This document shows, piece by piece, positions 31,573 to 62,637 of a DNA stretch of 64,000 nucleotides. This stretch comes from Rhodospirillales bacterium (GTDB lineage: Bacteria; Pseudomonadota; Alphaproteobacteria; Rhodospirillales; Casp-alpha2), in NCBI GenBank assembly GCA_017640505.1, contig JAEPQO010000001.1, positions 62,001-126,000 on the forward strand, in the 5' to 3' direction. Below the pieces are notes generated by a model. The model saw only the letters and a list, made by a program, of their open reading frames with translations, made no database searches and was not told the DNA's origin. Within the stretch, counting starts at the first letter, position 1. Every line of letters starts with the position of its first letter. Both the position numbers and the translations under genes were made by a program.

Positions 31573-33537
31573 TCAGTTTCTGTTGAAATATCCCGAAGAA
31601 GATGTGCCCGGGGCAGCGGATTTCGGCTCCACGTCGTCGATCGCTTTCTGCGCTTCCTGTTTCGCGTCCTCGATCGTTTCGAACAGGCGCGAGAAGAAGC
31701 CCCGGTCATCGGACGGCCGCGGCAGATCCCGCGCCGGCAGCCCGCCGTGCGCCGCCGCCATCACATCGCGCCAGATGCGCGCCGGATAGCTGCCGCCGGT
31801 GACGTGGTTCATCGGCGCGCCGTCATCGTTGCCGAGCCACACGCCGGCAATGAAGTCCGCCGTGTATCCGACGAACCAGGCGTCACGGTAATTCTGCGAC
31901 GTGCCGGTCTTGCCCGCGGCATCGCGGCCGAAATTGGCGGCCTTGCCGGTCCCTTCGGTGATGGCCTTGTGCAGCATGTTGTTCATCGGCCCGACCAGGT
32001 ATGGCTGCACGGCCTGACCCGGACCGGATCCCGTGCGCCGGTAGAGAATCTCGCCGCCGCCGTCGCGAATTTCCACGATCCCGAAGGGAATGACCCCGTT
32101 GCCGCCGTTGGCGAACGGCGCATAGGCGCTGACCAGTTCAAGCAACGTCGTTTCCACGGTGCCGAGCGCGATGGAGGCATCCGGTTTTTCGCCCGGGTCG
32201 ATCCCGAGGGTCCTCGCCGTATCGGCAACCCGGCTGATCCCCGCCTTCATGGCGACGCGAACGGCAACCGTGTTGACCGACCTGGCGAGACCATCCGAGA
32301 CCGTGGTCGGTCCGGTGAACTCGCCGTTGAAGTTGCTAGGCTCCCAGTTACCGATCTTGATCGGCGCGTCCTCGATCACGTCATCCGGCGACAGTCCTGC
32401 CTTGAGGCCCGCCAGATAAACGAACGGCTTGAACGCGGAGCCCGGCTGCCGCTGAGCCTGCGTCGCCCGGTTGAACTGCGTGGCTGCATAGTTGCTGCCG
32501 CCCACCATGGCCTTCACCGCGCCGTCCGGCGTCAGCAGCAGCACGGCGCCGTTGCCGATCTTGCGTTGCTTGCCGGCCTTGGCGATGACCCCGGCAAGGG
32601 TGCGCTCGGCGGTGAGCTGCGCATCCCGGTCGAGCGTCGTCTGCACGATCAGATCGCGGTCCCGGGCACCGGTGTAGTCCTGCACCTGATCCAAAATCCA
32701 GTCGACGAAGTAAGGCGCCGTGCGTCCGGGCCTGGATGTCGTGCTTTTCGTCGACGCGCCACGGGCTTTCCTGGCCTGTTCGTCGGTCAGGTATCCGGCC
32801 GCCACCATGTTGGCGAGAACGACCCGCGTGCGTTTCTCTGCGCGCTCGTCGTCACTGTGCGGATTATAGCGGCTCGGTGCTTTGAGGAGCCCGGCGAGCA
32901 TCGCGCTTTCCCACACGTTCAGAGCCGACGCGGGTTTGTTAAAGTACTTCCTCGCCGCGGCATCGACGCCGTAGGTCCCGGCGCCCAGATATACGCGGTT
33001 GAGGTAAAGCTCGAGAATCTGGTCCTTGGAAAAGCGGTGTTCCAGCCACAGCGCCAGCATGACTTCCTGGATCTTGCGCTTGTACGTGCGCTCGGAACTC
33101 AGGAACAGGTTCTTCGCCACCTGCTGCGTGATGGTGCTGCCGCCCTGGACGATGCGCCCGGCGCGCAGATTGGCGAACATGGCGCGGGCCAAACCGATGG
33201 GATCGATCCCGAAGTGGTCGTAATAGCGCCGGTCCTCGGTCGCCAGCACGGCCTGCGGCAGCGCCGGCGGCAGGTCCGAGAGGCGCACCGGAATCCCGTA
33301 CAGGTCGCCGACCGCGGCGATTTCCTTGCCGCCCGCGTCCAGCACCCAGACGGTCGGGCGCCTGGACGGCGCGAGACTGTCCTCGACGTCCGGCAGGTCG
33401 GTATAGAACCATCCGGCGGCGAACAGCGTCGCGATCAGCCCCCAGACAACGAGGGTCGCCGTCCACTTACCGAGGCGTCGCCAGAGCGAAGGACCGGCAG
33501 CGGATGTCTTGCCGTTCTTTTTGGATTTACGGGCCAT
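31573..33537 (-). CDS. PBP1A-type class A penicillin-binding protein (transglycosylase/transpeptidase)
   Basis: VLATEDRRYYDHFGIDPIGLARAMFANLRAGRIVQGGSTITQQVAKNLFLSSERTYKRKIQEVMLALWLE, RQPGSAFKPFVYLAGL, GKTGTSQNYRDAWFVGYT. Confidence 0.93.
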   Translation of the reverse strand: MARKSKKNGKTSAAGPSLWRRLGKWTATLVVWGLIATLFAAGWFYTDLPDVEDSLAPSRRPTVWVLDAGGKEIAAVGDLYGIPVRLSDLPPALPQAVLATEDRRYYDHFGIDPIGLARAMFANLRAGRIVQGGSTITQQVAKNLFLSSERTYKRKIQEVMLALWLEHRFSKDQILELYLNRVYLGAGTYGVDAAARKYFNKPASALNVWESAMLAGLLKAPSRYNPHSDDERAEKRTRVVLANMVAAGYLTDEQARKARGASTKSTTSRPGRTAPYFVDWILDQVQDYTGARDRDLIVQTTLDRDAQLTAERTLAGVIAKAGKQRKIGNGAVLLLTPDGAVKAMVGGSNYAATQFNRATQAQRQPGSAFKPFVYLAGLKAGLSPDDVIEDAPIKIGNWEPSNFNGEFTGPTTVSDGLARSVNTVAVRVAMKAGISRVADTARTLGIDPGEKPDASIALGTVETTLLELVSAYAPFANGGNGVIPFGIVEIRDGGGEILYRRTGSGPGQAVQPYLVGPMNNMLHKAITEGTGKAANFGRDAAGKTGTSQNYRDAWFVGYTADFIAGVWLGNDDGAPMNHVTGGSYPARIWRDVMAAAHGGLPARDLPRPSDDRGFFSRLFETIEDAKQEAQKAIDDVEPKSAAPGTSSSGYFNRN

Positions 33538-45417: not shown

Positions 45418-48078
45418 TCATTCGGCGGCCTCGCGGGTCGGCCACTCTTCAATCAGCGCACGGATTTCCGACTTGCATGAGCCGCAATTGGTGCCCGCCC
45501 CCAGGCAGGCGCCGATATCTTCGACGCTTCGGCAGCCATGTTCCTTTTGCGCGGCGCGTATCTGGTTAGCACCGATCGAGAAACACGCGCAGACGGTCGG
45601 CCCCGGGTCCGGTTGATCGAGCCCGCCACGCCCGGCGAGCATACTGGTCCCGAGAACCTCTTGCCCCAGTTGCGCTGCCGCCCATGACCTCGAAACACCC
45701 ACCGGTGACGGTGAGAAATAAACGGCGCCGATCAACCGTCCCGCGGACACGTAGGCGTATCGGAATTGTCCGCTCGCGTGATCTTCGTATGCCGTCCACC
45801 CGGCTTCTTTACGCGGCTCACCGAACAGCGATTCAGCAAACGTCTGCCAGTCGGGCGTGCCGGCGTCACCGGCCATCTCGATGCGCCAGCCCGCCGCAGT
45901 GCGCGCGACGGCCCAGTAGCCCGCGTCGATCCGTTCGGGCCGTGCGGCAAGAACCGCAAACCCGTACCAGGCGCCCTTGAAGGGCGCGACCGCAACATGC
46001 CCGTTCTTGAGTGCAGGCTGACCGGAAAAGGGATCAACGCTGCAATCCAGCACGCGCCCGACGCGTCCACCAGATGCGTACTGATCCGTCCAATGCATGG
46101 GAACGAAGCAATTACCGGGCCGCTGACGATCCGTGACAAGCGCGCGCAGGACGATTTCCTCGCCGCCGCCGCTGACCCGAACAAGGCCGGCTTCCGTGAT
46201 GCCGGCACCTGCCGCATCAGCCGGATGCAATGCAATGAATGGTTCCGCGTAATGGGCGGACAACGTCGCGGACTTACCGGTCCGGGTCATGGTATGCCAA
46301 TGGTCGCGGATGCGTCCGGTGTTCAGCACAAGACCCGTGCCGGTAGCCGGCCGCCCGGGCGGCGCCACGGCAACGAAGTGGTTGAGGCGACCGGCAACGA
46401 AAGGCGCACCGTCCTGACCGGATCGAATGGCATCGGCGGCCTTGTCGCGCAGCGGCCACTGCACCGGTTTCATCTGTTCGTAAGCGATATCCCCGATCCG
46501 CGCGTGCCACGAAATGTCGAAGGCGCGTTTTCCGTCGTTGCGGAAGCCGGACAGCGCCGCGTGCTCGCGGTAAATCTCCGATGGCGACGTGAAATCGAAA
46601 GCCTCGCCCCACCCCATGCGATGCGCCACTTCCTTGAGCGCCCACCAGTCGTGGCGCGCATCGCCGGGCGCCGGCATGAAACTCCTCTGCCGGGAAATCC
46701 GGCGCTCGGAATTGGTCACGGTGCCATCCTTTTCCGACCACGCCGTCGCCGGCAGCAGAACATGCGCATGACGCGCCGTGTCCGTATGCCGGACGTTGTC
46801 GGAAACAACCACGAAAGGACAGTTCTTCAACGCGTCCTCCACAGCCCAAGATCTTGGCAGGCTGTCGACGGGGTTGGTCGCCATGATCCAAATCGCCTTG
46901 ATGCGCCCGGCGGCGATCGCGTCGAACAGATCGACGGCCTTCAGGCCCGGCTTGTCGGCGATGACCGGGCTCTTCCAGAAGGACTGCACCGTCTCCCGGT
47001 CGGCAGCGTCCTCGATACGCATGTGCGCCGCCAGTTGGTTGGCAAGCCCGCCGACCTCCCGCCCGCCCATGGCGTTCGGCTGACCGGTCACCGAGAACGG
47101 CCCCATCCCCGGACGTCCCAACCGTCCGGTCGCCAGGTGGACGTTGATAATCGCGTTGACCTTGTCGGTGCCGCACGACGACTGGTTCACACCCTGACTG
47201 TAGATGGTGACGAGCTTCTGCGTATCACCGGCCCAGGAAAAGAAGGTCTCGATGTCGGCGCGGTCGAGGCCCGTCGACGCCGGCAGGCCTGCAAGGTCCG
47301 ACGCCTGCGCGGCACTCAGGGCCGCATCGAACCCGGCCGTGTGGGCGGCGATATAGTCCCGGTCGAGGTTGCCGGTCTCATCCAGGTGGCGGAGCAATCC
47401 GTTGAAAAGCGCAGCATCGCCATCCGGTGCAATCGGCAGGTGCAGGTCCGCCGCACCGGCGGTGACGGTGCGACGCGGGTCGATGACGACCAGACGCATG
47501 CCGGGGCGGCGTTCCTTCTCCGCCATGATCCGCTGGAACAGGACCGGATGACACCAGGCAAGGTTGGAGCCGACCAGCACAACGAGGTCGGCGAGTTCCA
47601 GATCCTCGTAGCTGGCGGGGACCACATCCTCGCCGAAGGCGCGGTTGTGCCCGGCAACCGACGAGGCCATGCAGAGCCGGGAATTGGTATCGATGTTGGC
47701 GGTACCGATGAAGCCCTTCATCAACTTGTTGGCGACGTAGTAATCCTCGGTCAGGAACTGTCCCGACACATAGAACGCGACACTGTCTGGGCCGTATTTA
47801 CGGATCGTCTCGGTGAACGTCCCGGCAACACGATCAAGCGCCGTATCCCACGAGACGCGCGCGCCGTCGATTTCGGGATGCAGCAACCGGTCATCGAGGA
47901 ACATCGTTTCCGCCAGCGCCGAACCTTTCGAGCACAGCCGGCCGTAATTCGCGGGATGGTTCGGGTCGCCTTCGATATTCACCAGCCCGTCGCCATGGCG
48001 GGTCGCGATGATCCCGCACCCGACGCCGCAATATGGGCAGGTCGTTCTGGTCCGGGACGTGAACTGCGTGCCGTCCAC
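45418..48078 (-). CDS. nasA: Assimilatory nitrate reductase catalytic subunit (Mo-bisMGD) with C-terminal BFD-type [2Fe-2S] domain
   Basis: CPYCGVGCGIIATRHGDGLVNIEGDPNHPANYGRLCSKGSAL, MGGREVGGLANQLAAHM, C-terminal VCACFSIGANQIRAAQKEHGCRSVEDIGACLGAGTNCGSCKSEI. Confidence 0.95.
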   Translation of the reverse strand: MDGTQFTSRTRTTCPYCGVGCGIIATRHGDGLVNIEGDPNHPANYGRLCSKGSALAETMFLDDRLLHPEIDGARVSWDTALDRVAGTFTETIRKYGPDSVAFYVSGQFLTEDYYVANKLMKGFIGTANIDTNSRLCMASSVAGHNRAFGEDVVPASYEDLELADLVVLVGSNLAWCHPVLFQRIMAEKERRPGMRLVVIDPRRTVTAGAADLHLPIAPDGDAALFNGLLRHLDETGNLDRDYIAAHTAGFDAALSAAQASDLAGLPASTGLDRADIETFFSWAGDTQKLVTIYSQGVNQSSCGTDKVNAIINVHLATGRLGRPGMGPFSVTGQPNAMGGREVGGLANQLAAHMRIEDAADRETVQSFWKSPVIADKPGLKAVDLFDAIAAGRIKAIWIMATNPVDSLPRSWAVEDALKNCPFVVVSDNVRHTDTARHAHVLLPATAWSEKDGTVTNSERRISRQRSFMPAPGDARHDWWALKEVAHRMGWGEAFDFTSPSEIYREHAALSGFRNDGKRAFDISWHARIGDIAYEQMKPVQWPLRDKAADAIRSGQDGAPFVAGRLNHFVAVAPPGRPATGTGLVLNTGRIRDHWHTMTRTGKSATLSAHYAEPFIALHPADAAGAGITEAGLVRVSGGGEEIVLRALVTDRQRPGNCFVPMHWTDQYASGGRVGRVLDCSVDPFSGQPALKNGHVAVAPFKGAWYGFAVLAARPERIDAGYWAVARTAAGWRIEMAGDAGTPDWQTFAESLFGEPRKEAGWTAYEDHASGQFRYAYVSAGRLIGAVYFSPSPVGVSRSWAAAQLGQEVLGTSMLAGRGGLDQPDPGPTVCACFSIGANQIRAAQKEHGCRSVEDIGACLGAGTNCGSCKSEIRALIEEWPTREAAE

Positions 48079-48085
48079 GATCCGC

Positions 48086-48430
48086 CTACGCCGCCCGGAC
48101 GGCGGCGACGCCGATGTCGATGGAAATGCGGCCGCCTTCGAGCTTCACCGGGATCGTCGCCACTTTGCCTTCGTCCGCGCCCTGCGCCTCGCCGGTGGCG
48201 AGGCTGATGACCCAGTTGTGCAACGGACAGGTGACGCAGCCGTCGTGAACGATCCCCTGGCTGAGCGGGCCGTTTTTATGCGGGCATTTGTCCTCCAGCG
48301 CGAAGACCTGATCGTCGCCGGTGCGGAACAGCGCCACCGTGTAGCCCGGGACCTTGACGCACCGGGCCCCCCGGCGCGGGATATCGTTGAGGTAGCCGAC
48401 GTCGATCCAGCGTTCGGTTTGCGTATTCAT
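48086..48430 (-). CDS. nirD: Nitrite reductase small subunit (Rieske-type)
   Basis: CPHKNGPLSQGIVHDGCVTCPLHNWVISLATGEAQGADEG; overlaps the nirB stop. Confidence 0.94.
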   Translation of the reverse strand: MNTQTERWIDVGYLNDIPRRGARCVKVPGYTVALFRTGDDQVFALEDKCPHKNGPLSQGIVHDGCVTCPLHNWVISLATGEAQGADEGKVATIPVKLEGGRISIDIGVAAVRAA

Positions 48431-50877
48431 TCCGCGGCCTCCAGTCTCGAGATATCCGACATCGGCGTGAATTCACGCCAGTCCTTGCCCGCGACCCGCT
48501 CGGCCCACGGGTCGATCTGTGCGAACTTCTGCGAATAGAGGAAGCGGCGGTACAGCAGGTTGCGGCGCTCCTGATCCTCGACGATCTGGGCGCGGACCGT
48601 GTCATGACCGACCCGGTCGGCCCATTTGTAGATACGTTCCAGATAACGTCCCTGCTCGCGGTAGAGCTGCACCGTCGCGGCACAGTATTCCAGCGCCTCT
48701 TCCTCGGTCGCGACGGTGCACAGGATTTCGGTACCCTTGATGTGCATGCCGGCGGCACCGGCGAAGTGCAGCTCGTAGCCGCTGTCGACGCAGATCACGC
48801 CGAAGTCCTTGCACGTCGCCTCGGCGCAGTTCCTGGGGCAGCCCGACACCGCCATCTTGACCTTGTGCGGCGTCCACGATCCCCACATCATTTTTTCGAT
48901 CTTGATGCCGAGGCCGGTGGAGTCCTGCGTGCCGAAACGGCACCAGTCCGTACCGACACATGTTTTTACCGTGCGAAGCCCTTTCGCGTAGGCCGCCCCC
49001 GAGACCATCCCGGCGGCGTTGAGATCGGCCCACACGGCGGGCAGGTCTTCTTTCTGCACACCCAGCAGATCGATCCGCTGGCCGCCCGTCACCTTGACCG
49101 ACGGAATATTGAATTTCTCGGCGACATCGGCGATGGCGCGTAGTTCGCCCGGCGTCGTCATCCCGCCCCACATGCGGGGGATCACCGAATACGTGCCGTC
49201 CTTCTGGATGTTGGCGTGGACGCGCTCGTTGATGAAACGGGACTGGTAATCGTCTTCGTATTCACCCGGCCACGTCGCCACGAGATAATAGTTGAGCGCC
49301 GGACGGCACTTGGCGCATCCGCAAGACGTCTTCCATTCCAGTTCCTGCATCACGGCGGGAATGGTCTTCAGTTCCTTGGCGACAATCAGGCGCCGCACAT
49401 CGTCATGACCCAAGTCCGTGCACGGACACATGGGCTGCACGGCGGCCGGGTTGTAGGCATCGCCCAGCGCCAGCGCCAGCAACTGTTCCACCAGACCGGT
49501 GCACGATCCGCACGACCCGGACGCTTTTGTGACCGCGCGCACATCGTCGATGGTGCTCAGCCCCTGTTCCGCGATCGCGGAAACGATGTCGCCCTTGCAG
49601 ATGCCGTTGCAGCCGCAGATCTCGCCGTCATCCGGCAAGGCTGCAACGGCCGCCGTAGGGTCCAGCGGGGCGCCTCCCGCGTAACCCTGGCCGAAGATCA
49701 GCGTTTCGCGCAGTTCCGAAACGTCCGTGCCGTCCTTCATCATCTGGAAGAACCAAGCGCCGTCCTTGGTCTCGCCGTAGAGAACGACGCCGATGATCCT
49801 GTTGTCCTTGAGAACCAGGCGCTTGTAGACGCCGGCGGCGGCATCGCGGAGCACGATCTCTTCCCGGTCGGGCGCCTCGGCGAAGTCACCCGCCGAGAAC
49901 AGGTCGATCCCCGTGACCTTGAGCTTGGTCGACGTGACGGAGCCGGTGTAGGCCGCCGTTTCGTCACCGGCGAGCCGTGCCGCCAACGTTTTTGCCATGT
50001 CATAGAGCGGCGCGACGAGGCCGTAGCACATGCCCCGGTGCTCGGCGCACTCACCGACGGCGGAAATGTCCGGGTCCGACGTCCGCATCGCGTCATCGAC
50101 GATGATCCCTCGCCCGATTTCCAACCCGGCCGCTTCGGCGACCGCCGTGCTCGGCTTGATGCCGACCGCCATCACAACGATATCGGCAGGGATGACCGTG
50201 CCGTCGTCGAGCGCGACGCCCGTCACCTCGTCGTCGCCGAGAATTTCGTGTGTGTTGGCCTTGGTGATGACCCGAATGTCGCGGTCTTCGATCGCGCGTT
50301 GCAGCAGGTATCCCGCCGCCGGATCGAGCTGACGTTCCATCAGGGTCGGCATCAAGTGCAGCACGGTCACGTTCATGCCCTGCATCTGCAACCCGGCAGC
50401 CGCCTCGAGGCCAAGAAGCCCGCCGCCGATCACGACGGCGTTCTTCCTCTTCTTGGCTGCCTCCAACATCTGGTCCACATCGTCTAAGTCGCGGTAGGTC
50501 ACGACGCCATTCTTGTCGTGACCCGGCACCGGAATGACGATCGGTGTCGAGCCCGTCGCGATCATCAGGTGATCGTAGGGCGAGGTGACACCGTTTTCGG
50601 ACATCACGGTTTTCTTCTCGCGGTCGATGTGGACGATCTTTTCGCCCTTCAGCAGGGTGACGCCATGTTCGGCGTACCAGGCATCGTCGTGGATGACGAT
50701 ATCCTCGAAGGTCTTTTCACCCGAAAGCACGGGCGACAGCATGATCCGGTCATAATTGACGCGCGGTTCGGCGTTGAAGATGGTGACATCGAAATCACCC
50801 GGCGCTTTCTTGAAAAGCGTCTCCAGCGCGCGGCCCGGCGCCATGCCGTTGCCGATGACGACCAGCTTCTTTTTCAT
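48427..50877 (-). CDS. nirB: NAD(P)H nitrite reductase large subunit (sirohaem)
   Basis: KLVVIGNGMAPGRALETL, BFD motif CGCNGICKGDIVSAI, sirohaem/4Fe-4S motifs CVGTDWCRFGTQDS and VSGCPRNCAEATCKDFGVI. Confidence 0.96.
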   Translation of the reverse strand: MKKKLVVIGNGMAPGRALETLFKKAPGDFDVTIFNAEPRVNYDRIMLSPVLSGEKTFEDIVIHDDAWYAEHGVTLLKGEKIVHIDREKKTVMSENGVTSPYDHLMIATGSTPIVIPVPGHDKNGVVTYRDLDDVDQMLEAAKKRKNAVVIGGGLLGLEAAAGLQMQGMNVTVLHLMPTLMERQLDPAAGYLLQRAIEDRDIRVITKANTHEILGDDEVTGVALDDGTVIPADIVVMAVGIKPSTAVAEAAGLEIGRGIIVDDAMRTSDPDISAVGECAEHRGMCYGLVAPLYDMAKTLAARLAGDETAAYTGSVTSTKLKVTGIDLFSAGDFAEAPDREEIVLRDAAAGVYKRLVLKDNRIIGVVLYGETKDGAWFFQMMKDGTDVSELRETLIFGQGYAGGAPLDPTAAVAALPDDGEICGCNGICKGDIVSAIAEQGLSTIDDVRAVTKASGSCGSCTGLVEQLLALALGDAYNPAAVQPMCPCTDLGHDDVRRLIVAKELKTIPAVMQELEWKTSCGCAKCRPALNYYLVATWPGEYEDDYQSRFINERVHANIQKDGTYSVIPRMWGGMTTPGELRAIADVAEKFNIPSVKVTGGQRIDLLGVQKEDLPAVWADLNAAGMVSGAAYAKGLRTVKTCVGTDWCRFGTQDSTGLGIKIEKMMWGSWTPHKVKMAVSGCPRNCAEATCKDFGVICVDSGYELHFAGAAGMHIKGTEILCTVATEEEALEYCAATVQLYREQGRYLERIYKWADRVGHDTVRAQIVEDQERRNLLYRRFLYSQKFAQIDPWAERVAGKDWREFTPMSDISRLEAAE

Positions 50878-52598
50878 TATGCGGCCTCCTCCTCAACGTC
50901 GTCGTTCTTTGCTTCGCCTTTGTCCGCCGGGTTGGCACCGCCTTCGTACTCCTCGAGGAAATCGAGAAGTTCCTGGCGGTAGGCGTAATAATCTTCATGC
51001 GCCAGCAATGCTTTGCGCGAACGCGGCCGCGGCAGGTCCACGTCCATGATCTTGCCGATGCGCGCGTGCGGCCCGTTGGTCATCATGACGACCTTGTCGG
51101 CCAGCAGGATCGCCTCGTCGACGTCGTGGGTGACGCAGATCGCGGTAACTTGGGTCTTGCTCCAGACGTCCATCAGCACTTCCTGAAGCTCCCAGCGGGT
51201 CAGGCTGTCGAGCATGCCGAACGGCTCATCGAGCAGAAGCAGCTTCGGCGACAGTGCGAATGCACGTGCGATGCCGACACGCTGCTTCATACCGTTCGAA
51301 AGTTCGTCGGCGAGCTTGTCCATCGAGTCACCCAAGCCGACGCGCGACAGGTAGTATTCGACGATATCGTTGCGCTCGGCCGCCGATGCGGTCGGATAAA
51401 CCTTGTCGACGCCGAGACCGACGTTATCGCGCGCAGATAGCCACGGCATCAGGGACGGTGCCTGGAACACGACCGCGCGTTCAGGGCCGGCACCGACGAT
51501 TTCCTTGTTGGCGAGCGCGATGCCGCCGTCGGAAATGCCGTTGAGACCCGCGACCATCGACAGCACCGTCGACTTGCCGCAGCCGGAATGGCCGATCAGG
51601 GAAATGAACTCGCCCTTCTTCATGATCATGTCGAAACCGTCGACCACCGTCAGCGGGCCCTTCGGCGTCGGGTAGACCTTGGAAACGTTGTAGAACTCGA
51701 CGTAGCGATCCTCGATCGGCGACGCCGCCGCTTCCTGATAGGCGGCGGGTAGTTTCTCGTCCGGCTGCTGGGTGATCGGCACCACGTTCGGCAATTCGCC
51801 GGTGATTTCGGTTTCTGCGCCACGTTTGATCCCGGCTTCGAACAGGTACTGCGTCACCTCGGCACGAAGCGCCTTGAACGCTTCGTCGTTGTTCATGGCG
51901 CCGCGGTCGCGCGGCCGGGGCATGTCGACCTTGAAGGCCGGCCCCAGCGTCGCGTTCGGCCCCGGGTTCAAGGGAATGATCCGGTCGGCGAGCAGGATCG
52001 CCTCATCGACGTCGTTGGTGATCAGGATGACGGTCTTTTTCTCACGCTCCCAGATGTCCTCGATCTCGTCCTGCAGTTTGGCGCGGGTCAACGCGTCGAG
52101 CGCGGACAGCGGCTCGTCGAGCAGCAAAACTTCCGGGCTCATGGCCAGTGCACGGGCCACCGAGACACGCTGGCGCATGCCGCCGGAAAGCTCCGCCGGT
52201 TTGCGATCCGCGGCGTGGCCGAGGCCGACCATGTCGATGTACTTTTCGATGCGCGCCTCGCGCTCGGCCTTGCTTTCCTTCTTGAAGACCTCGTCCACCG
52301 CCAGCTTGACGTTGCCGTGCACGCTCAACCACGGCATCAGCGAATAGGACTGGAACACAAGCCCGCGCGACGGATCGGGGCCGGTGATCGGCTTGCCGTT
52401 CATCGTCACGCTGCCGCCATCCGGCGAGATCAGACCCGCCAGCATCGAGATCAGCGTCGTCTTGCCCGACCCGGAGAAGCCGACGATGGCGATGAACTCG
52501 CCTTCCTCGACGGCGAGGTCGATGCCGCCAAGCACGTCGGTACGGTCGCGCCCGCTGCCGTAGGATTTGGTGACGTTTTTCATTTCGAGAAATGACAT
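50877..52598 (-). CDS. Nitrate/nitrite ABC transporter ATPase with two complete ATP-binding domains (NrtC/NrtD-like fusion)
   Basis: Two Walker A motifs ([18 protein letters not shown]) and two signature regions ([30 protein letters not shown]) in one ORF. Confidence 0.92.
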
Positions 52599-52623: not shown

Positions 52624-53715
52624 TCAGCGATTGGTCTTGAATGTGAAGGCGGCCTGCAGGGCGTACATCAGCCGGTCCAGCAGGAAACCGATGATGCCGA
52701 TGGTCAGCACCGCGACCATGATCCGCGCCAGCGACGAGGACGAGCCGTTCTGGAACTCGTCCCAGACAAATTTGCCGAGACCCGGGTTCTGCGCCAGCAT
52801 CTCGGCGGCGATCAGGACCATCCAGCCGACACCCAGCGAAAGGCGAAGCCCGGTGAAGATGAGCGGCAAGGCGGACGGCAGCACCAGCTTGGTAACCGTC
52901 TTCCACGTCGGCAGCTGCAGGACGCGGCCGACGTTCATCAGGTCCTTGTCGATGGACGCAACGCCGTGCGCGGTGTTGATCAGGGTCGGCCAGAGCGAAC
53001 AGAGCGTCACCGTCACGGCCGAGATCACCAGCGACTTCGGCATGGCGTCGGAAACGTCGACGTAAAGCGCGGACACGATCATGGTGACGATCGGCAGCCA
53101 CGCCAGCGGCGAGACGGGTTTGAAGATCTGGATCAGCGGGTTGAGCGCCCCGTTCACGGCACGGGAAAGCCCCGACATGATGCCTAACGGCACGGCGATG
53201 AAAGTGGCGATCAGAAAGCCGAGAGCAACGGTGTAAAGGCTGGTGAATATCTGATCGAGATACGTCGGCTTGCCGGTGTAGTCGCGCCACTTGACCCGTT
53301 CCGGATGACCGGCCTCGACCCACTTGGCGTTACGTGCTTCCTGGCGTTCCATGAACGCGGCTTCCTTGCCGCGCTCGGCGACATGATCGTGATAGAGGTT
53401 CACGGCCTGCTCGTAGACCTCGACCGGCCCGGGGATCGCGCCGAGCGACGTATCGACCTTCGGTGCCAGATAGGCCCACGCGCTGAGGAAAATGATCAGA
53501 CCCGCAAGCGGGATGCAGAGCTGCTGCCAGACCTCGCCCATCTGCTCGCGCGGATTGTCACCGGCGGCGATCTTCATCAGCGGCACGAGCCACCCGAGGC
53601 CGGCGACGCTCAGGTAAGCGGCCGACTTGTTGATCCATGAGAAGATCTTCTCGCGGCGCTGGGCGCTTTTTTTCTCAGCGGCGGGGGCTTCGATCACGTT
53701 CTCGATGGTGCTCAT
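52624..53715 (-). CDS. nrtB: Nitrate ABC transporter permease
   Basis: Binding-protein-dependent permease signature region [27 protein letters not shown]; in the nrt operon. Confidence 0.92.
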
Positions 53716-53787: not shown

Positions 53788-55197
53788 TCAGTTGGTGACG
53801 ACCTTGGTGCCCGCGACGGTCTCGGAACCTTTGAGGCCGATGGGGAACTGTTTCAGGTAGTCGTTGGGTTTCTTGCCATCGAAGGTGATGCCGTCGATGA
53901 ACTCGGACTGCGGCTTGCGGTAGCCGTCCGTGTCCCAGGGGAAGTCGGCTTTCGCCACCTTGCCCTCGGCGACCAGCAGCTTCGCGGCGTCGAGATAGAT
54001 ATCCGGACGGTAGACGGACTTGGCGACTTCATCGTACCAGCTGTCCGGCTTGCCTTCGGTGATCTGGCCCCAGCGACGCATCTGCGACAGGTACCAGACG
54101 GCATCCGAGTAATAGGGATAGGTCGCGAAGTAACGGTAGAACACGTTGAAGTCCGGCACGTCGCGCTTGTCGCCCTTCTCGTATTCGAACGTTCCCGTCA
54201 TCGAGTTGGCGATGACCTCTTCATCCGCGCCCACGTACTGGGACTTGGCGAGGATCTTCACGGCTTCCATGCGGTTGGCGTTGTTGTCCTCGTCGAGCCA
54301 CTTGGCGGCGCGGATCAGCGCCTTGGTCAGCGCCAGCGTCGTGTTCGGATACGTCTCGGCGAATTCCTTGGTGATACCAAAGACCTTTTCCGGATTGTCC
54401 TTCCAGATCTCATAATCGGTGATCACCGGCACGCCGATGCCCTTGAAGACGGCCTGCTGGTTCCACGGCTCACCGACGCAATAACCACTGATGGTGCCCG
54501 CTTCGAGCGTCGCCGGCATCTGCGGCGGCGGCGTCACGGACAGAAGCGCGTCGGCCTGGATCTGGCCGGAGATGTCGGTCTTCGAGTAGTACCCCGGGTG
54601 GATGCCGCCCGACGCCAGCCAGTAACGCAGTTCGTAGTTGTGCGTCGACACCGGGAACACCATGCCCATGTTGAACGGACGGCCGTCGGCCTTGAACTTG
54701 TCGACGACCTTTTTCAGGTATTCGGCCTTGATCGGATGCACCGGCTTGCCGTCCGGCCGCTTCGGCAGGTGCGGCTTCATCATTTCCCAGACTTCGTTGG
54801 AAACGGTGATGCCGTTACCGTTCAGGTCCATGGAGAACGGCGTGATGATGTGTGCCTTGGTGCCAAAGCCGATAGTCGCCGCGAGTGGCTGGCCGGCCAG
54901 CATGTGCGCACCGTCGAGTTCGCCGGTGATGACGCGGTCGAGAAGCACCTTCCAGTTGGCCTGCGGCTCGAGGGTGACATAGAGCCCCTCTTCCTCGAAG
55001 TAACCCTTCTCGTAGGCAATCGCGAGCGGTGCCATGTCGGTGAGCTTGATAAAGCCGAACTTCAGTTCGTCCTTTTCAACAAGGAGCATCTCCGCGGATG
55101 CCGACGACGCGGCGACAGTTAGACCGAGCGCCAAAGCGCCAGCGGCCTTTTTAAGCCTGCCCCAGAGCGGGGACTTGTTCTGCGTGGTCATGGTCAT
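53788..55197 (-). CDS. nrtA: Nitrate ABC transporter substrate-binding protein (NrtA/CmpA family)
   Basis: [63 protein letters not shown]. Start at ATG 55197 preceded by AAGGAGG (55206-55212); track start 55278 lies in the leader terminator. Confidence 0.93.
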
Positions 55198-55249: not shown

Positions 55250-55310
55250 AAAAAAAGCCGCTTCAAGGTCGGGACCATCCGTGCTCGGACGTTCCTTCCT
55301 TGGCGGCTTT
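55250..55310 (-). terminator. Intrinsic terminator in the nrtA leader
   Basis: Minus: AAAGCCGC-CAAGG...CCTTG-AAGCGGCTTTTTTT; GC-rich stem followed by 7 U. Confidence 0.88.
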
Positions 55311-55316
55311 GCCAGC

Positions 55317-55367
55317 GGCCCTTCGATAGGCCATCAGGTTTTCAGGACGCAGGCCTCCATTGGCCTG
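55317..55367 (-). promoter_or_regulatory. ANTAR-type two-hairpin RNA antiterminator motif in the nrtA leader
   Basis: Hairpin 1 (minus) CAGGCC-AAUGGA-GGCCUG (55367-55350); hairpin 2 GGCCU-AUCGAA-GGGCC (55332-55317). Both hexaloops have A1 and G4. An ANTAR gene (nasT) lies upstream. Confidence 0.88.
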
Positions 55368-55426
55368 TTGCAGTGCACAATAACAGACGCGTCCATGCGC
55401 GCAAGCATTTTGTTTATTAAATGCTC

Positions 55427-55456
55427 AAAAAAATTTTCTGATTAAAAAACAATCAG
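55427..55456 (-). terminator. Possible intrinsic terminator just after nasS
   Basis: Minus: CTGATT-GTTTTTT-AATCAG then AAAATTTTTTT; weak AT-rich stem. Confidence 0.5.
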
Positions 55457-55464
55457 TGTTGAGG

Positions 55465-56706
55465 CTATTTGCCCCGATTCTCGGCAATATAGGCGTCCAG
55501 AAGGTCCGGATCGAACGACCGGCCGTCGAAGAAACCATCGGGACCGAGGCGAATCCGCCCCTGCGCGGCCGGCATATCGGTCGCATGGTCCAGCGCGCCT
55601 TCGACCTTCAGGCTTGCACTGGGAATCCCGATATCGGTGCCCGTCAGCGCCTTGCGATAGATGTCGGGACGGTAAATCTCGCGCACCAGCGCCGCCGCCT
55701 CTGCGCTATGCTCGAACATGCTCCAACGGACCATCTGCGCATAGAACCAGAGGGCATGACTAATCCACGGGAAGGTCGCCGCCCGGTCCCGGAACAGCAG
55801 GAAGTCATCGATCACGTGGTCTGCGCCGCTCTGGATCAGCGGCATCCGCCCGCTTAATCCCCGGAGAAGACGCGCGGGCGGTTGGTCGAGATACGCGGGG
55901 CCTGCAATCAATTCGGCGAGCTGTTCGTCGTTCGCGGAGGAGCCGCACCAGTCCGACGCCCGGGCCAGCGCCCGGATCAGGCGCGCCAGTGCATCAGGGT
56001 TGCCGTCCGCCCATGCGGCGCTGACCCCCAGCACTTTCTCCGGCGAACAGCGCCAGATCGAGGACTTGGTGGTGGCGATGACCCCGGCCCCCGTCTCGAC
56101 GGCGAGCGCGTTCCACGGTTCGCCGACACAGAAGCCGTCGAGCTGCCCCGATTTCAGCGCATCCGCCATGAACGGCGGCGGCACGACGATGAACTCGGCG
56201 TCCACGTCGGGCTGGATACCCGACGCCGCCAGCCAGTACCGGAGTTCCAGGTTGTGGCTCGAGAAACGGTGCACGACACCCAGCATCAACGGTTTCGCAC
56301 CCTTTGCACGCCTAGCCGCGCAGACCCGGGCCAATGCCCGTCCATTGACCGTTGCGTCGCCGGTTTCTTCGGCGCCTTCGCCGAGCATCTCCGCCCACAG
56401 AGAACCGGAAACGGTCACCGCATTGCCGCCCAGGCCCAGCGCCATCGGCGCGATCAGGCGGGTATCCATCGGCCCCGACGAAAGCGCGGCCGCGATCGGC
56501 ATCGGCGCCAGCAGGTGCGCAACGTCGAAATGGCCGACGGCAAGACGGTCGCGGATCGTCGCCCAAGAGGTTTCCCGGTGCAGCCGGAGGTCAATCCCTT
56601 CGGCTTCGCAGAACCCGCGCTCGCGGGCGACGATCAGGATCGATGCATCGACCAGCGGCAGGAACCCCGCATTGATTGATACCGTTTCCGCTGCCGTCAT
56701 ATTCAA
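55465..56706 (-). CDS. nasS: NasS-type nitrate sensor (NrtA/CmpA-family substrate-binding-like protein)
   Basis: INAGFLPLVDASILIVARERGFCEAEGIDLRLHRETSWATIRDRLAVGHFDVAHLLAPMP; no clear signal peptide; overlaps the nasT stop. Confidence 0.88.
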   Translation of the reverse strand: MNMTAAETVSINAGFLPLVDASILIVARERGFCEAEGIDLRLHRETSWATIRDRLAVGHFDVAHLLAPMPIAAALSSGPMDTRLIAPMALGLGGNAVTVSGSLWAEMLGEGAEETGDATVNGRALARVCAARRAKGAKPLMLGVVHRFSSHNLELRYWLAASGIQPDVDAEFIVVPPPFMADALKSGQLDGFCVGEPWNALAVETGAGVIATTKSSIWRCSPEKVLGVSAAWADGNPDALARLIRALARASDWCGSSANDEQLAELIAGPAYLDQPPARLLRGLSGRMPLIQSGADHVIDDFLLFRDRAATFPWISHALWFYAQMVRWSMFEHSAEAAALVREIYRPDIYRKALTGTDIGIPSASLKVEGALDHATDMPAAQGRIRLGPDGFFDGRSFDPDLLDAYIAENRGK

Positions 56707-57293
56707 TCCCCTAACATCCCGACCGACGTGATCAGGCTTTCCGCCACTTCGGCGACCCGCCGGTTCTGGTCCATCGCTGTTTTTCGCAACAGCTTGTAGG
56801 CCTCGTCCTCGCTGAGACCGCGCATCTTCATAAGAATGCCCTTTGCCCTGTCGATCACCTTGCGGTCGGCAAGCTCACCCCGCGTCGCTTCCAGCTCTTC
56901 GCGCAGGCGGTTAACCGCGTTGAAGCGGCTGATCGTCATATCAAGGATCGGCTTCACCCGCTCCTTCTTGAGGCCGTCGACGATGTAAGTGCTGACGCCG
57001 GCATCGACCGCGGCTTCGATCATCGACGTATCCGACTGGTCCACGAACATGGCAATCGGCCGCTGCACCGAGCGCGAAACGGCGAACATGTGCTCAAGCA
57101 TGTCGCGGTTCGGGTTTTCCAGGTCGATGAAGATGACATCCGGTTCGAGCTCGGCGATACGCCGCACCAGGTGATCCATGTCGGAAATCACGGTGACGTG
57201 CTGGTAGCCGGCATCGCGCAGTCCGTCCTCGAGAATGGAGCCGCGGATCGTATCGGTATCGATGACCAGAATGCTGAGATCGCTGGACGTCAT
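56703..57293 (-). CDS. nasT: NasT-type ANTAR-domain transcription antiterminator
   Basis: Receiver-like N-terminus (ILVIDTDTIRGSILEDGLRDAGY) and ANTAR C-terminus (LADRKVIDRAKGILMKMRGLSEDEAYKLLRKTAMDQNRRVAEVAESLI). Confidence 0.92.
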   Translation of the reverse strand: MTSSDLSILVIDTDTIRGSILEDGLRDAGYQHVTVISDMDHLVRRIAELEPDVIFIDLENPNRDMLEHMFAVSRSVQRPIAMFVDQSDTSMIEAAVDAGVSTYIVDGLKKERVKPILDMTISRFNAVNRLREELEATRGELADRKVIDRAKGILMKMRGLSEDEAYKLLRKTAMDQNRRVAEVAESLITSVGMLGD

Positions 57294-57451: not shown

Positions 57452-58078
57452 TCACTCGGCAGCCGTGTTTCGGGCAGCATCCGACCCGTCGTTCGAAACC
57501 TGCGGCCATGCACGCGCGGCATTCTCGGCGACGGTCAACAGCTGTTCCCGGGTCGCCCCGGTGCTGGCCTGGATGGACATGCCGTTGGCGATGGTCGCCA
57601 GCAGCATGGCGAGGTCTTCGGGGGTGGTCCCGTCGGGGAGCCGGCCGGCGGCCTGTTCTTCGGCGAACCGCTTGCGGATCTGATCTTCATGGCCGCGGCG
57701 AATACGGATCAATTCCTGGCGCACCGGCTCTGACTCGTCGCTGCAGCTGATCGCGCCCTGGACCGCCAGGCAGCCGACCGGGTGGCCCGGTTCGGTCATC
57801 ATCTCGGCGGCCTTACGCAGTAGGTGTCGCACCACGTCGCGCCCGGTCGGTTCGGCGAGAGCCTCGTCGAAGACGGCATTCTTGACCGAGATGTACCGGT
57901 CGAGGGCCTTTCGGAACAGCTCTTCCTTGTTGCCGAACGTGGCGTAGAGGCTCGGACGGTTAATCCCCATCGCTTCTGTTAATACAGCGAGCGATGCACC
58001 CTCGTAGCCGTGACGCCAGAAAACGTCGAGTGCTTTATCCAGCGCTTCCTCTTCACAGAAACCGCGAGGTCGTGCCAT
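57452..58078 (-). CDS. TetR/AcrR-family transcriptional regulator
   Basis: ALDKALDVFWRHGYEGASLAVLTEAMGINRPSLYATFGNKEELFRKALDRY; divergent from RND efflux genes. Confidence 0.93.
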   Translation of the reverse strand: MARPRGFCEEEALDKALDVFWRHGYEGASLAVLTEAMGINRPSLYATFGNKEELFRKALDRYISVKNAVFDEALAEPTGRDVVRHLLRKAAEMMTEPGHPVGCLAVQGAISCSDESEPVRQELIRIRRGHEDQIRKRFAEEQAAGRLPDGTTPEDLAMLLATIANGMSIQASTGATREQLLTVAENAARAWPQVSNDGSDAARNTAAE

Positions 58079-58101
58079 TGGATGACTTCCCTATTGTTTT
58101 A

Positions 58102-58113
58102 TACCTTACGGTA
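58102..58113. promoter_or_regulatory. Putative TetR operator 1
   Basis: TACCTTACGGTA in the divergent intergenic region. Confidence 0.6.
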
Positions 58114-58154
58114 AAATATAAACTTGACTCATCAATTGTCCAGCCCTAGTTATG

Positions 58155-58166
58155 TACCGAACGGTA
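58155..58166. promoter_or_regulatory. Putative TetR operator 2
   Basis: TACCGAACGGTA; arms TACCG/CGGTA, 10 of 12 bp identical to operator 1. Confidence 0.6.
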
Positions 58167-58187
58167 TATAACATTGGGTTTAATTCC

Positions 58188-59408
58188 ATGACAGCGAATA
58201 TTCATCTTTCGGTGCGCAAGCCCCGGATCTTCCTGTGGTCGGCCGGCGTTCTCGTCGCCGCCGGAATCGCGGCGGGCGTGGCGGTCACGTCCACGGACGG
58301 CGACGCGGCCGGCCCCGCCCCGCAAGGCGCGCCGCCCGCGGTACCTGTTTCGGTCGCCACCGTGGAGGCCACAAAAACGATCCGCTGGCATGAATTTTCC
58401 GGCCGTCTCGAAGCGGTTGAGCGGGTCGAAATCCGCTCGCGCGTCGCCGGCCAGATTCAGGACGTGCTGTTCCGCGAAGGCTCTTTGGTTGAACAAGGCG
58501 ATCTGCTGGTGACCATCGACCCGGCACCGTTTGAGGCCGAGGTTGCCCGCGCCGAGGCCGCCGTGGCGTCGGCCCGTGCACAGCTCAAGTTCACCAAGGT
58601 CGAGCACGAGCGCGCCCAGAAGCTCGCCGGGACCGGGGCCATGCCGGTCCGCGAGATGGACCGCCGCGACAATGACTACCGCGAGGCGCAGGCCGCGTTG
58701 CGCGCCCAGCAGGCATTGCTCAGGGTCGCCAGGCTCAACCTTGGCTACACGGAAATCCGCGCACCGATCTCGGGCCGGGTGGGCAAGGCGCTGATCACCG
58801 TCGGAAACCTGGTGCCCGCGGGCGCCGGCGCGCCGGCGCTGACGACGCTGGTTTCCGTCGATCCGATCTATGCTGCCTTCGACGCAGACGAAAAAGTCGT
58901 CATGCAGCAGCTGCACGAACTTCGGAAAAGCGGCAGCAACCTGGATGTCAGCCGTATACCGGTGGAGATGGAAGGCGCTGCTGCCGACGAGCCCGTCATC
59001 CACGGCCAGGTTCAGTTCGTCGACAATGCCGTCGACGCGGCCAGCGGCACGGTTCGTGTACGCGCCCAGTTCCCGAACCCGGACGGCTTCCTGATGCCCG
59101 GACAGTTCGCGCGCCTCAGGATGGGTCAGGCGTCGCCGCAGCCGTTGCTTTTGATTTCCGAACGCGCCATCGGCACCGACCTCGACAAGAAATTCGTCAT
59201 GGTCGTCGGTGAGGGCGACAAGGCGGAATACCGCGAAGTCACGCTGGGTGCCGTCGCCGACGGTCTGCGTATCGTCACGAGCGGACTCAATGCCGGTGAC
59301 AGGGTCATCGTCAGCGGTCTGCAGCGGGTCCGCCCGGGGGCCCAGGTTAAGCCGGAAGCGGTTTCCATGCGCCCGGCGAATGCGGCCGAGATCGCTGAAA
59401 ACCAGTAA
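58188..59408 (+). CDS. RND efflux periplasmic adaptor (membrane fusion protein)
   Basis: HEFSGRLEAVERVEIRSRVAGQIQDVLFREGSLVEQGDLLVTIDPAPFEAEVARAEA, LGYTEIRAPISGRVGKALITVGNLV. Start ATG 58188 preferred over 58152, which falls just before operator 2. Confidence 0.93.
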   Translation: MTANIHLSVRKPRIFLWSAGVLVAAGIAAGVAVTSTDGDAAGPAPQGAPPAVPVSVATVEATKTIRWHEFSGRLEAVERVEIRSRVAGQIQDVLFREGSLVEQGDLLVTIDPAPFEAEVARAEAAVASARAQLKFTKVEHERAQKLAGTGAMPVREMDRRDNDYREAQAALRAQQALLRVARLNLGYTEIRAPISGRVGKALITVGNLVPAGAGAPALTTLVSVDPIYAAFDADEKVVMQQLHELRKSGSNLDVSRIPVEMEGAAADEPVIHGQVQFVDNAVDAASGTVRVRAQFPNPDGFLMPGQFARLRMGQASPQPLLLISERAIGTDLDKKFVMVVGEGDKAEYREVTLGAVADGLRIVTSGLNAGDRVIVSGLQRVRPGAQVKPEAVSMRPANAAEIAENQ

Positions 59409-59436
59409 TTCAACCTTCTGAACACGGGAGCGTTCC

Positions 59437-62400
59437 GTGAACATCTCGAAGTTTTTCATCGACCGTCCGGTCTTTGCCGGCGTGCTGTCGATCATGATTT
59501 TTGCCGCCGGGTTGCTGTCGCTCCGGATCCTGCCGATCTCGGAATACCCGAACGTGGTGCCGCCGACGGTCGTCGTTCACGCGCAGTACCCGGGCGCCAA
59601 TCCGAAGGTCATCGCCGCGACCGTGGCGACGCCGCTTGAAGAAGCCGTCAACGGCGTCGAGGACATGCTCTACATGTCCAGCCAGGCGACCACCGACGGC
59701 AACCTGTCACTGACGGTGACATTCAAGCTCGGCACGGACCCCGACCGCGCGCAACAACTTGTTCAGAACCGGGTCACGCAGGCAGAACCGCGTTTGCCCG
59801 AAGAAGTGCGCCGCCTCGGCGTGACGACGATCAAGAGCTCGCCCGACCTGACGATGGTCGTGCACCTGCTGTCGCCGAATGACCGCTACGACATGACGTA
59901 CCTGCGCAATTACGCGGTGCTGAACATCAAGGACCGGCTGGCGCGCCTTGAAGGTGTGGGACAGGTACGCCTGTTCGGTTCCGGCGATTACGCCATGCGT
60001 ATCTGGCTTGATCCGCAGAAGGTCGCCGAGCGTGGCCTTTCCGCCGGTGATGTGGTCACCGCGATCCGCGAACAGAACATCCAGGCCGCCGCCGGTGTCG
60101 TCGGTGCCTCGCCGGGGCTGCCGGGCGTTGACCTGCAGCTGCCGATCAACGCGCAGGGCCGGCTGGAAAGCGCCGAGCAGTTCGGGGACATCATCGTCAA
60201 ATCCGATTCCGGCGGCGCGGTCACGCGTCTTCGCGACCTCGGACGGATCGAAATGGGAGCCGCCGAATATGCACTGCGCTCGCTCCTGGACGGCAAGGAC
60301 GCCGTCGCGATCCCGATCTCGCAGTCCCCGGGCTCCAATGCGATCCAGATATCCAACGACGTCCGCGCGACGATGGAGGAACTCAAGGGCTACATGCCCG
60401 AGGGCGTGACCTACGAAATCGTCTACGATCCGACGCAGTTCGTGCGCGCCTCCATCGAGTCCGTGGTACACACCCTGCTGGAAGCGGTCGCCCTCGTCGT
60501 CCTGGTGGTGATCCTGTTCCTGCAGACGTGGCGGGCTTCGATCATTCCGTTGCTGGCGGTGCCGGTCTCCATTGTCGGCACGTTCGCGGCGATGCATCTG
60601 CTGGGCGTGTCGATCAACGCGCTGTCGCTGTTCGGCCTCGTGCTGGCGATCGGCATCGTCGTCGACGACGCGATCGTGGTCGTCGAGAACGTCGAACGGA
60701 ACATCGAGGAAGGTCTCATTCCGCGCGAGGCGACCTACCGGGCGATGCGTGAAGTGTCGGGCCCGATCATCGCCATCGCGCTGGTGCTGGTGGCGGTGTT
60801 CGTGCCGCTGGCGTTCATCAGCGGGCTTTCGGGGCAGTTCTACGAGCAGTTCGCGCTGACCATCGCGATCTCGACGGTGATCTCTGCGGTCAACTCGCTG
60901 ACGCTGTCGCCGGCGCTGGCGGCGCTTTTGCTGAAGGGACACGATGCGCCCAAGGACTGGCTGACGCGGCTCATGGACCGGCTCTTCGGCTGGCTGTTCC
61001 GCGGCTTCAATTTCGCGTTTGGCGGCGGCGCCCGCGCCTACGGTGGCGGCATCCGCCGCGTGCTGTCGCACAAGGCGATCATGATGGGCATGTACCTCGC
61101 ACTACTGGGCGTGGCGTATGGCCTGTTCCAGTCCGTGCCGGGCGGATTCGTGCCGCAGCAGGATAAACAATACCTGATCGGCTTCGCCCAGCTGCCGGAC
61201 GGCGCAACGCTGGACCGCACCGAAGAGGTGGTCCGCGAGATGAGCAAGATCACGCTGGCCGATCCGGGCGTCGAACACGCCGTGGCGTTCCCGGGCCTGT
61301 CGATCAGCGGTTTTTCCAACAGCTCGAGCGCCGGTATCGTGTTCGCGCCGCTGAGGTCGTTCGATGAACGCACCGACCCGTCATTAAGCGCCGGCGCCAT
61401 CGCCGGGCGGCTGAACGCCAAGTTCCAGAGCATCAAGGACGCCTACGTGGTGGTCTTCCCGCCGCCGCCGATCCTCGGCATCGGCACCACGGGCGGCTTC
61501 AAGCTGCAGATCGAGGATCGCGCCTCGCACGGGTACCAGGCGCTCAACCAGGCGGTGCAGGGCTTCCTCGCCAAGGCCAACGCCGCGCCCGAACTCGCCA
61601 ACCTGTTCACCGGGTTTCAGGTCAATGTGCCGCAACTCTATGCCGACATCGACCGCACCAAGGCGCAGCAGCTGGGGGTCTCGGTCTCCGACGTGTTCGA
61701 TACGCTGCAGATTTATCTGGGCAGCCTCTACGTCAACGACTTCAACCGCTTCGGGCGCACGTACTCGGTCCGGGTTCAGGCCGACGCCGAATTCCGCGCG
61801 CGCGCCGAGGATATCGGCCGTCTCAAGGTCCGCTCCCAGTCGGGTGAAATGATCCCGCTGTCTGTGCTGCTCAACGTCAAACACGACGTCGGGCCGGAGC
61901 GCGCCATGCGTTACAACGGCTTCCTCGCCGCCGACGTCAGCGGCGCACCGGCGCCCGGATTCTCATCGGGCGAGGCGCAGGCCGCGGTCGAACGGGTTGC
62001 CGCCGAGACGCTGCCGAACGGGTTCGCGTTCGAGTGGACGGACCTGACGTACCAGCAGATTCTTGCGGGCGACTCGACGCTGATCGTATTCCCGCTGGCG
62101 ATCCTGCTGGTGTTCCTGGTCCTGGCCGCGCAGTACGAGAGTCTGACACTGCCGCTGGCGATCATCATGATCGTACCGATGAGCCTGCTGGCCGCGTTGC
62201 TGGGCATCTATCTGACCGGTGGCGACAACAACATCTTCACGCAGATCGGGCTGGTCGTGCTGGTCGGATTGTCGGCGAAGAACGCGATCCTGATCGTGGA
62301 GTTCGCGCGCGATCTGGAATTCGCCGGGTACACACCCTACGACGCCGCGGTCGAGGCCTCGAAGCTCCGCCTCCGGCCGATCCTGATGACGTCGATGGCG

Positions 62401-62637
62401 TTCATCATGGGCGTCGTACCGCTGGTGCTGGCGAGCGGCGCCGGCGCTGAGATGCGTCACGCCATGGGTGTGGCCGTGTTCTCGGGCATGATCGGCGTGA
62501 CCGCGTTCGGCATTTTCCTGACACCGGTGTTCTACGTGCTGGCGCGTGCGCTTGCCGGGAACCGGCCGCTCAGAAACACCGGCAGCGATGCAGGCGAGCT
62601 GCTGGCCGAAAACCGCGCACCGGTGCCGGGCGAGTAA
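59437..62637 (+). CDS. RND efflux permease (HAE1 family, AcrB-like)
   Basis: 1,066 aa; ISKFFIDRPVFAGVLSIMIFAAGLLSLRILPISEYPNVVPPTVVVHAQYPGA, LAIGIVVDDAIVVVENVERN, VGLSAKNAILIVEFARDLE. Confidence 0.96.
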   Translation: MNISKFFIDRPVFAGVLSIMIFAAGLLSLRILPISEYPNVVPPTVVVHAQYPGANPKVIAATVATPLEEAVNGVEDMLYMSSQATTDGNLSLTVTFKLGTDPDRAQQLVQNRVTQAEPRLPEEVRRLGVTTIKSSPDLTMVVHLLSPNDRYDMTYLRNYAVLNIKDRLARLEGVGQVRLFGSGDYAMRIWLDPQKVAERGLSAGDVVTAIREQNIQAAAGVVGASPGLPGVDLQLPINAQGRLESAEQFGDIIVKSDSGGAVTRLRDLGRIEMGAAEYALRSLLDGKDAVAIPISQSPGSNAIQISNDVRATMEELKGYMPEGVTYEIVYDPTQFVRASIESVVHTLLEAVALVVLVVILFLQTWRASIIPLLAVPVSIVGTFAAMHLLGVSINALSLFGLVLAIGIVVDDAIVVVENVERNIEEGLIPREATYRAMREVSGPIIAIALVLVAVFVPLAFISGLSGQFYEQFALTIAISTVISAVNSLTLSPALAALLLKGHDAPKDWLTRLMDRLFGWLFRGFNFAFGGGARAYGGGIRRVLSHKAIMMGMYLALLGVAYGLFQSVPGGFVPQQDKQYLIGFAQLPDGATLDRTEEVVREMSKITLADPGVEHAVAFPGLSISGFSNSSSAGIVFAPLRSFDERTDPSLSAGAIAGRLNAKFQSIKDAYVVVFPPPPILGIGTTGGFKLQIEDRASHGYQALNQAVQGFLAKANAAPELANLFTGFQVNVPQLYADIDRTKAQQLGVSVSDVFDTLQIYLGSLYVNDFNRFGRTYSVRVQADAEFRARAEDIGRLKVRSQSGEMIPLSVLLNVKHDVGPERAMRYNGFLAADVSGAPAPGFSSGEAQAAVERVAAETLPNGFAFEWTDLTYQQILAGDSTLIVFPLAILLVFLVLAAQYESLTLPLAIIMIVPMSLLAALLGIYLTGGDNNIFTQIGLVVLVGLSAKNAILIVEFARDLEFAGYTPYDAAVEASKLRLRPILMTSMAFIMGVVPLVLASGAGAEMRHAMGVAVFSGMIGVTAFGIFLTPVFYVLARALAGNRPLRNTGSDAGELLAENRAPVPGE

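Follow-up and report, generated by a model that had tools for sequence, protein, structure and literature searches.

The leader of the nrtA operon studied here is, with a probability that we put at roughly 0.86, a NasS/NasT-controlled, nitrate-inducible transcription antiterminator in which a third hairpin (HP3) locks the 5' arm of an intrinsic terminator. It lies on the minus strand of the window (the whole 64,000-nt stretch of DNA analyzed), between nasT-nasS and nrtA-nrtB-nrtC/D-nirB-nirD-nasA. A preliminary description of this DNA had proposed an ANTAR/NasT-type antitermination leader for this operon, and that part of the interpretation is supported by the A1/G4 hexaloops, by the upstream nasTS genes, and by covariation. 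The mechanism offered there, with the first two hairpins (HP1 and HP2) acting as the antiterminator, was not supported. The analysis was computational throughout. The genes concerned are as follows.

56703..57293, minus strand: nasT, REC plus ANTAR RNA-binding antiterminator, 196 aa (Pfam ANTAR, 1.3e-22; Response_reg, 5.8e-10)
55465..56706, minus strand: nasS, NrtA-like nitrate sensor, presumed cytoplasmic, 413 aa (Pfam NMT1_2, 3.4e-72)
53788..55197, minus strand: nrtA, nitrate ABC transporter binding protein, start ATG at 55197 (Pfam NMT1_2, 9.5e-97)
52624..53715, minus strand: nrtB, permease (TIGR01183 ntrB, 8.2e-48, under the curated cut-off; BPD_transp_1)
50877..52598, minus strand: nrtC/D, single protein with two ABC ATPase domains (TIGR01184 ntrCD, 8.2e-178)
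48427..50877, minus strand: nirB, nitrite reductase large subunit (TIGR02374, 3.4e-280)
48086..48430, minus strand: nirD, nitrite reductase small subunit (TIGR02378, 5.4e-28)
45418..48078, minus strand: nasA-type assimilatory nitrate reductase with a C-terminal BFD [2Fe-2S] domain (Molybdopterin, 2.6e-70; Fer2_BFD)

The Pfam domain matches bear out the earlier placement of the ANTAR gene nasT, together with nasS, directly upstream of the leader. A REC plus ANTAR protein adjoins an NrtA-like sensor protein, the arrangement by which a NasS-NasT system is recognized. The two genes overlap by 4 nt at the stop, and their order is kept in most of the relatives fetched. The host genome contains exactly one ANTAR gene, which is nasT. 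NasT aligns with EutV (Protein Data Bank code 6wsh, E = 1.7e-19), NasR (4akk), and AmiR (1qo0). The residues of EutV reported to contact RNA are Arg142, Lys143, Lys149, Glu160, Tyr164, Met172, and Arg177 (PMC8934654), and all seven aligned positions of NasT are identical (R144, K145, K151, E162, Y166, M174, and R179). On the other side of nasT, the adjoining region 57452-62637 encodes a regulator resembling TetR together with two divergent genes, apparently for the adaptor and the pump of an RND efflux system.

The leader between nasTS and nrtA contains the following elements.

55367-55350, minus strand: HP1, CAGGCC-AAUGGA-GGCCUG, A1/G4 hexaloop (from the sequence; helix covaries in 16 leaders)
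55349-55333, minus strand: 17-nt linker between HP1 and HP2 (from the sequence)
55332-55317, minus strand: HP2, GGCCU-AUCGAA-GGGCC, A1/G4 hexaloop (from the sequence; helix covaries)
55314-55301, minus strand: HP3, UGGC-AAAGCC-GCCA, A1/G4 hexaloop (from folding and the loop letters of relatives; helix covaries)
55324-55314, minus strand: 5' arm of a weaker alternative terminator, GAAGGGCCGCU, overlapped by HP2 (from folding)
55310-55250, minus strand: intrinsic terminator (minimum-energy structure)
55310-55303, minus strand: terminator 5' arm, AAAGCCGC (minimum-energy structure)
55261-55254, minus strand: terminator 3' arm, GCGGCUUU (minimum-energy structure)
55261-55250, minus strand: end of the GC-rich stem, GCGGCUUUUUUU (from the sequence)
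55256-55250, minus strand: T7 (U7) run of the terminator (from the sequence)
55212-55206, minus strand: ribosome-binding site AAGGAGG (from the sequence)

Every element named in the preliminary description, namely the two A1/G4 hexaloop hairpins, the 17-nt linker, the terminator, AAGGAGG, and ATG 55197, is present in the sequence, but the inventory was incomplete in that HP3 had been left out. HP3 follows HP2 after 2 nt and HP1 after about 35 nt. Its stem is only 4 bp long, and its loop and 3' arm constitute the terminator 5' arm. A possible extra A1/G4 hexaloop hairpin, GCGC-ATGGAC-GCGT, is found at 55400-55387, 19 nt upstream of HP1; it is probably a chance occurrence, and the transcript may start only downstream of it. 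At 55427-55460, between nasS and the leader, there is also CTGATT-GTTTTTT-AATCAG followed by AAAATTTTTTT, which could be a weak terminator for nasTS.

The predicted fold of the leader is more stable than that of dinucleotide shuffles (-82.5 versus -68.9 kcal/mol, z = -3.05), and in the minimum-energy structure HP1, HP2, and the terminator are all present. When folding was performed stepwise, transcripts of intermediate length held HP1, HP2, and HP3, and at full length the terminator replaced HP3 alone. The full minimum, in which HP1 and HP2 are kept, is -53.3 kcal/mol compared with -41.5 kcal/mol when the three hairpins are enforced, which makes the three-hairpin state less stable than the terminator state by about 12 kcal/mol. 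This difference and the shortness of the HP3 stem count against the HP3 reading, so that kinetics and protein binding would have to do the work of antitermination. The leader contains three A1/G4 hexaloop stems, where an ANTAR-target RNA is expected to have two, and the last of them, HP3, overlaps the 5' arm of the main terminator and is mutually exclusive with it; HP2 is not. In the published EutV/NasR model, it is the distal hexaloop that overlaps the terminator, and on these folding predictions HP3 is therefore most likely the antiterminator, corresponding to the canonical ANTAR P2.

The earlier proposal would have HP1 and HP2, with their 17-nt linker, form a dual-hexaloop antiterminator and would make HP3 a by-product of the terminator arm. 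Both loops do carry A1 and G4, and the linker falls within the range of 2-25 nt reported for actinobacterial ANTAR RNAs (PMC8164766). In addition, GAAGGGCCGCU, which consists of the HP2 loop and 3' arm, can pair over 11 bp with GCGGCUUU, the 3' arm of the terminator, so that HP2 excludes this alternative terminator and could contribute to antitermination directly. The alternative structure is the weaker one, at -47.6 compared with -53.3 kcal/mol, and in the predicted fold HP1 and HP2 are found alongside the main terminator, which is the more stable; on this prediction they would therefore not be the antiterminator. HP3 is also the constant element among related leaders (G4 in 37 of 37), whereas A1/G4 is missing from HP2 in 18 of 40 leaders that retain HP1 and HP3. 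We regard the HP1-HP2 arrangement as very improbable and retain HP3 as the antiterminator.

To compare leaders, nrtA orthologues were gathered from relatives and their leaders were then examined. An early filter that demanded two perfect A1/G4 hairpins and T5 returned few relatives, and it was a relaxed, terminator-anchored search that revealed HP3. In a geometry test that did not demand any loop letters, a 6-nt loop beginning at the start of the terminator 5' arm was read in 37 leaders, and this embedded hexaloop had A1 in 36 and G4 in all 37. In most of the related leaders, A1 of the loop is precisely the first nucleotide of the terminator 5' arm. Within the 40 nt upstream of HP3, a hexaloop hairpin of at least 5 bp occurs in 25 of the 37 leaders, with G4 in 24 and both A1 and G4 in 16; the corresponding counts in dinucleotide shuffles were 2.4, 0.6, and 0.2. 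A control region gave a hexaloop hairpin in only 2 of 37, with neither A1 nor G4. These comparisons bear on the possibility that the leader is a constitutive attenuator, or a set of ordinary intergenic hairpins, with A1/G4 arising by chance. The motif is small, and such pairs do arise by chance elsewhere in the window, but the loop letters, the spacing, the compensatory changes, and the synteny with nasTS are far above shuffles and control regions, and this reading is the least probable of the explanations considered. Against the HP3 reading stands that a number of nrtA leaders have no element of this kind at all.

A survey of 40 leaders, with HP3 placed manually in five of them and two uncertain ones excluded, showed at least one upstream A1/G4 hexaloop besides HP3 in 37. 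Both HP1 and HP2 carry A1/G4 in 8 (the window included), only HP1 in 18, only HP2 in 11, and neither in 3; the leaders share descent, so these counts are not independent events. HP3 is thus the near-invariant element among relatives, and HP1 and HP2 are each sometimes absent or lack A1/G4. The distance to HP3 is 2-8 nt in the 11 HP2-only leaders and 24-61 nt in the 18 HP1-only leaders. The gap between HP1 and HP3 in the latter holds another hairpin in 16 of 16 examined, compared with 8.3 in shuffles (maximum 12). From this comparison, HP2 seems to be kept as a helix, and its loop serves as an ANTAR site in some leaders but perhaps not in others. Seven leaders (L156, L160, L161, L162, L165, L169, and L170), with HP1 52-61 nt from HP3, represent a long-spaced version, and several of their gaps carry a G1/G4 hairpin such as CCCGGC-GACGAT-GCCGGG.

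The same distribution leaves room for a variant of the HP3 reading in which a single upstream loop is used. Either HP2 and HP3 would be P1 and P2, 2 nt apart, with HP1 dispensable, or HP1 and HP3 would be the pair, with HP2 as a folded spacer. The leaders that have only one upstream A1/G4 loop, at either distance, and the regular occurrence of a hairpin in the HP1-HP3 gap speak for it. The window and seven other leaders have A1/G4 in both upstream loops, and neither loop therefore looks merely structural here. We consider this variant a serious candidate whose chances fall somewhat short of even. Any division of labor between HP1 and HP2 is something that we can only infer.

Covariation was assessed on a gapless alignment of 16 leaders with linkers padded by N. 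Pairing is maintained in 97.3% of cells, and both sides have changed in 58 cells compared with 18.4 in shuffles; as the hairpins were picked by hand, these values are biased toward structure. Double changes are present in all three helices, so the absence of covariation in orthologous leaders, which had been named as grounds for rejecting the antitermination leader, was not encountered, with the same bias applying. The letter-free loop count and searches on held-out leaders are fairer tests. A covariance model (R1) gave nrtA leaders that had not been used to train it scores of 41.8, 40.2, 40.1, 33.1, and 31.2 bits, and in the gap that follows nasS it picked up 25 Rhizobium loci at E < 0.005. 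Across 385 genomes of the class, all 10 matches at E ≤ 1e-4 were directly upstream of an nrtA orthologue, 8 of the 10 being leaders from the training set. No match was obtained in S. meliloti pSymB. In the host genome, the present leader scored 48.7 bits and the next best match 26.4 bits (L172). The latter was set aside because it is within an apparent coding region, and, judged by these scores, the genome seems to offer no strong target other than nrtA. A 22-bit match in the window at 32544-32585 was also set aside, as it reads as coding. No Rfam family reached its gathering score for the leader, and the weak matches at a relaxed threshold were unrelated. A model of the R1 type, which Rfam lacks, singles out nitrate-assimilation leaders.

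By analogy with characterized homologues, the preferred HP3 mechanism would proceed as follows. RNA polymerase would make HP1, HP2, and HP3 in that order. Without nitrate, NasT would be held by NasS, and once the 3' arm GCGGCUUU has been made, the terminator would displace HP3 and transcription would stop at the U7 tract. With nitrate, NasT would be freed from NasS and would bind the A1/G4 hexaloops, HP1 and HP2 serving as upstream recruiting loops. Capture of HP3 would lock the terminator 5' arm and allow nrtA-nrtB-nrtCD-nirBD-nasA to be transcribed.

In known ANTAR RNA antitermination, P2 overlaps the terminator, and A1 and G4 are required (PMC3369931, PMC3369936). Their published form is the dual stem-loop, in which the linker measures 5-12 nt in eut (PMC3369931) and 2-25 nt in actinobacteria (PMC8164766). 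The closest parallel in gene order is nasABGHC of Paracoccus denitrificans (PMC3795266, PMC5424462), for which these papers describe nasT-nasS upstream of the structural operon, a leader of about 200 nt with hairpins, and an ANTAR protein released by nitrate, a property that the present NasT would share as a homologue. Paracoccus NasT binds the nasA leader RNA upon nitrate activation (PMC3795266). Expression of nasA falls severely when hairpin HI of the leader is mutated, and a strain with the HI mutation on its chromosome fails to grow on nitrate (PMC5424462). The sections consulted give hairpins HI and HII and, unlike here, do not discuss a third, terminator-embedded hexaloop; two sequenced Paracoccus leaders contain two to three A1/G4 loops.

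The leader shares with EutV/eutP (PMC3369931, PMC8934654) the A1/G4 hexaloops, the position of the last one in the terminator 5' arm, and the conserved contact residues of the protein. The eut linkers are 5-12 nt in length, and function suffers at 14 nt or on extension by 20 nt, whereas the HP1-HP3 gap here is about 35 nt and contains another A1/G4 hairpin. The Klebsiella NasR/nasF leader (PMC3369936) likewise has A1/G4 loops, in P1 and P2, and nitrate-responsive antitermination, as would be expected here, but it has two hairpins, and NasR is a one-component NIT-ANTAR sensor rather than a NasS plus NasT pair. In Bradyrhizobium diazoefficiens, hairpins for NasT interaction, such as those predicted here, are found in the nosR and nirA leaders of nitrate-linked operons (PMC6759348), and the NasT regulon comprises multiple operons, unlike the one strong target in the present host genome.

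The kind of leader, NasS/NasT antitermination, is already known; what is modestly new is the triple-hexaloop layout, in which the upstream loops are interchangeable. The open-access papers searched do not describe a three-hexaloop ANTAR leader; the variant may be known from subscription journals or supplementary figures. Current ANTAR models have two hexaloops and a short linker. A fixed embedded loop with a partner 2-8 or 24-61 nt away, or both, is a natural experiment on the ANTAR dimer, asking whether both loops are needed at once or are visited one after the other, the latter being the proposal of the 2022 paper on the structure of EutV. More speculatively, and in our view rather unlikely, alphaproteobacterial NasT leaders might be a distinct triple-hexaloop ANTAR RNA class, with a terminator-embedded loop and two evolutionarily interchangeable upstream loops, possibly bound by a higher NasT oligomer, so that the response to nitrate would be graded or cooperative. 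The oligomer idea derives from released Paracoccus NasT, which runs at about hexamer size (PMC3795266).

Most relatives have a sigma-54-type site, TGGCAC-N5-TTGC, upstream of the leader, in many cases at a distance of about 60-120 nt from HP3, so that the transcript would start close to the first hairpin. A sigma-54 (-24/-12) site is missing from the window and from its closest relative, L001 (best match, 7 of 11 letters), and no site passed in a sigma-70 scan; that no promoter was recognized counts against the HP3 reading. Within 55370-55420, a weak sigma-70-like pair, TTGCGC-N16-TATTGT, would put the start next to HP1.

The longest mechanical open reading frame for nrtA begins at 55278, inside the terminator. 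As the preliminary description had already argued, this start is spurious: the ATG there has no visible ribosome-binding site and was rejected, and ATG 55197, which has AAGGAGG 8 nt upstream, was accepted as the start of nrtA.
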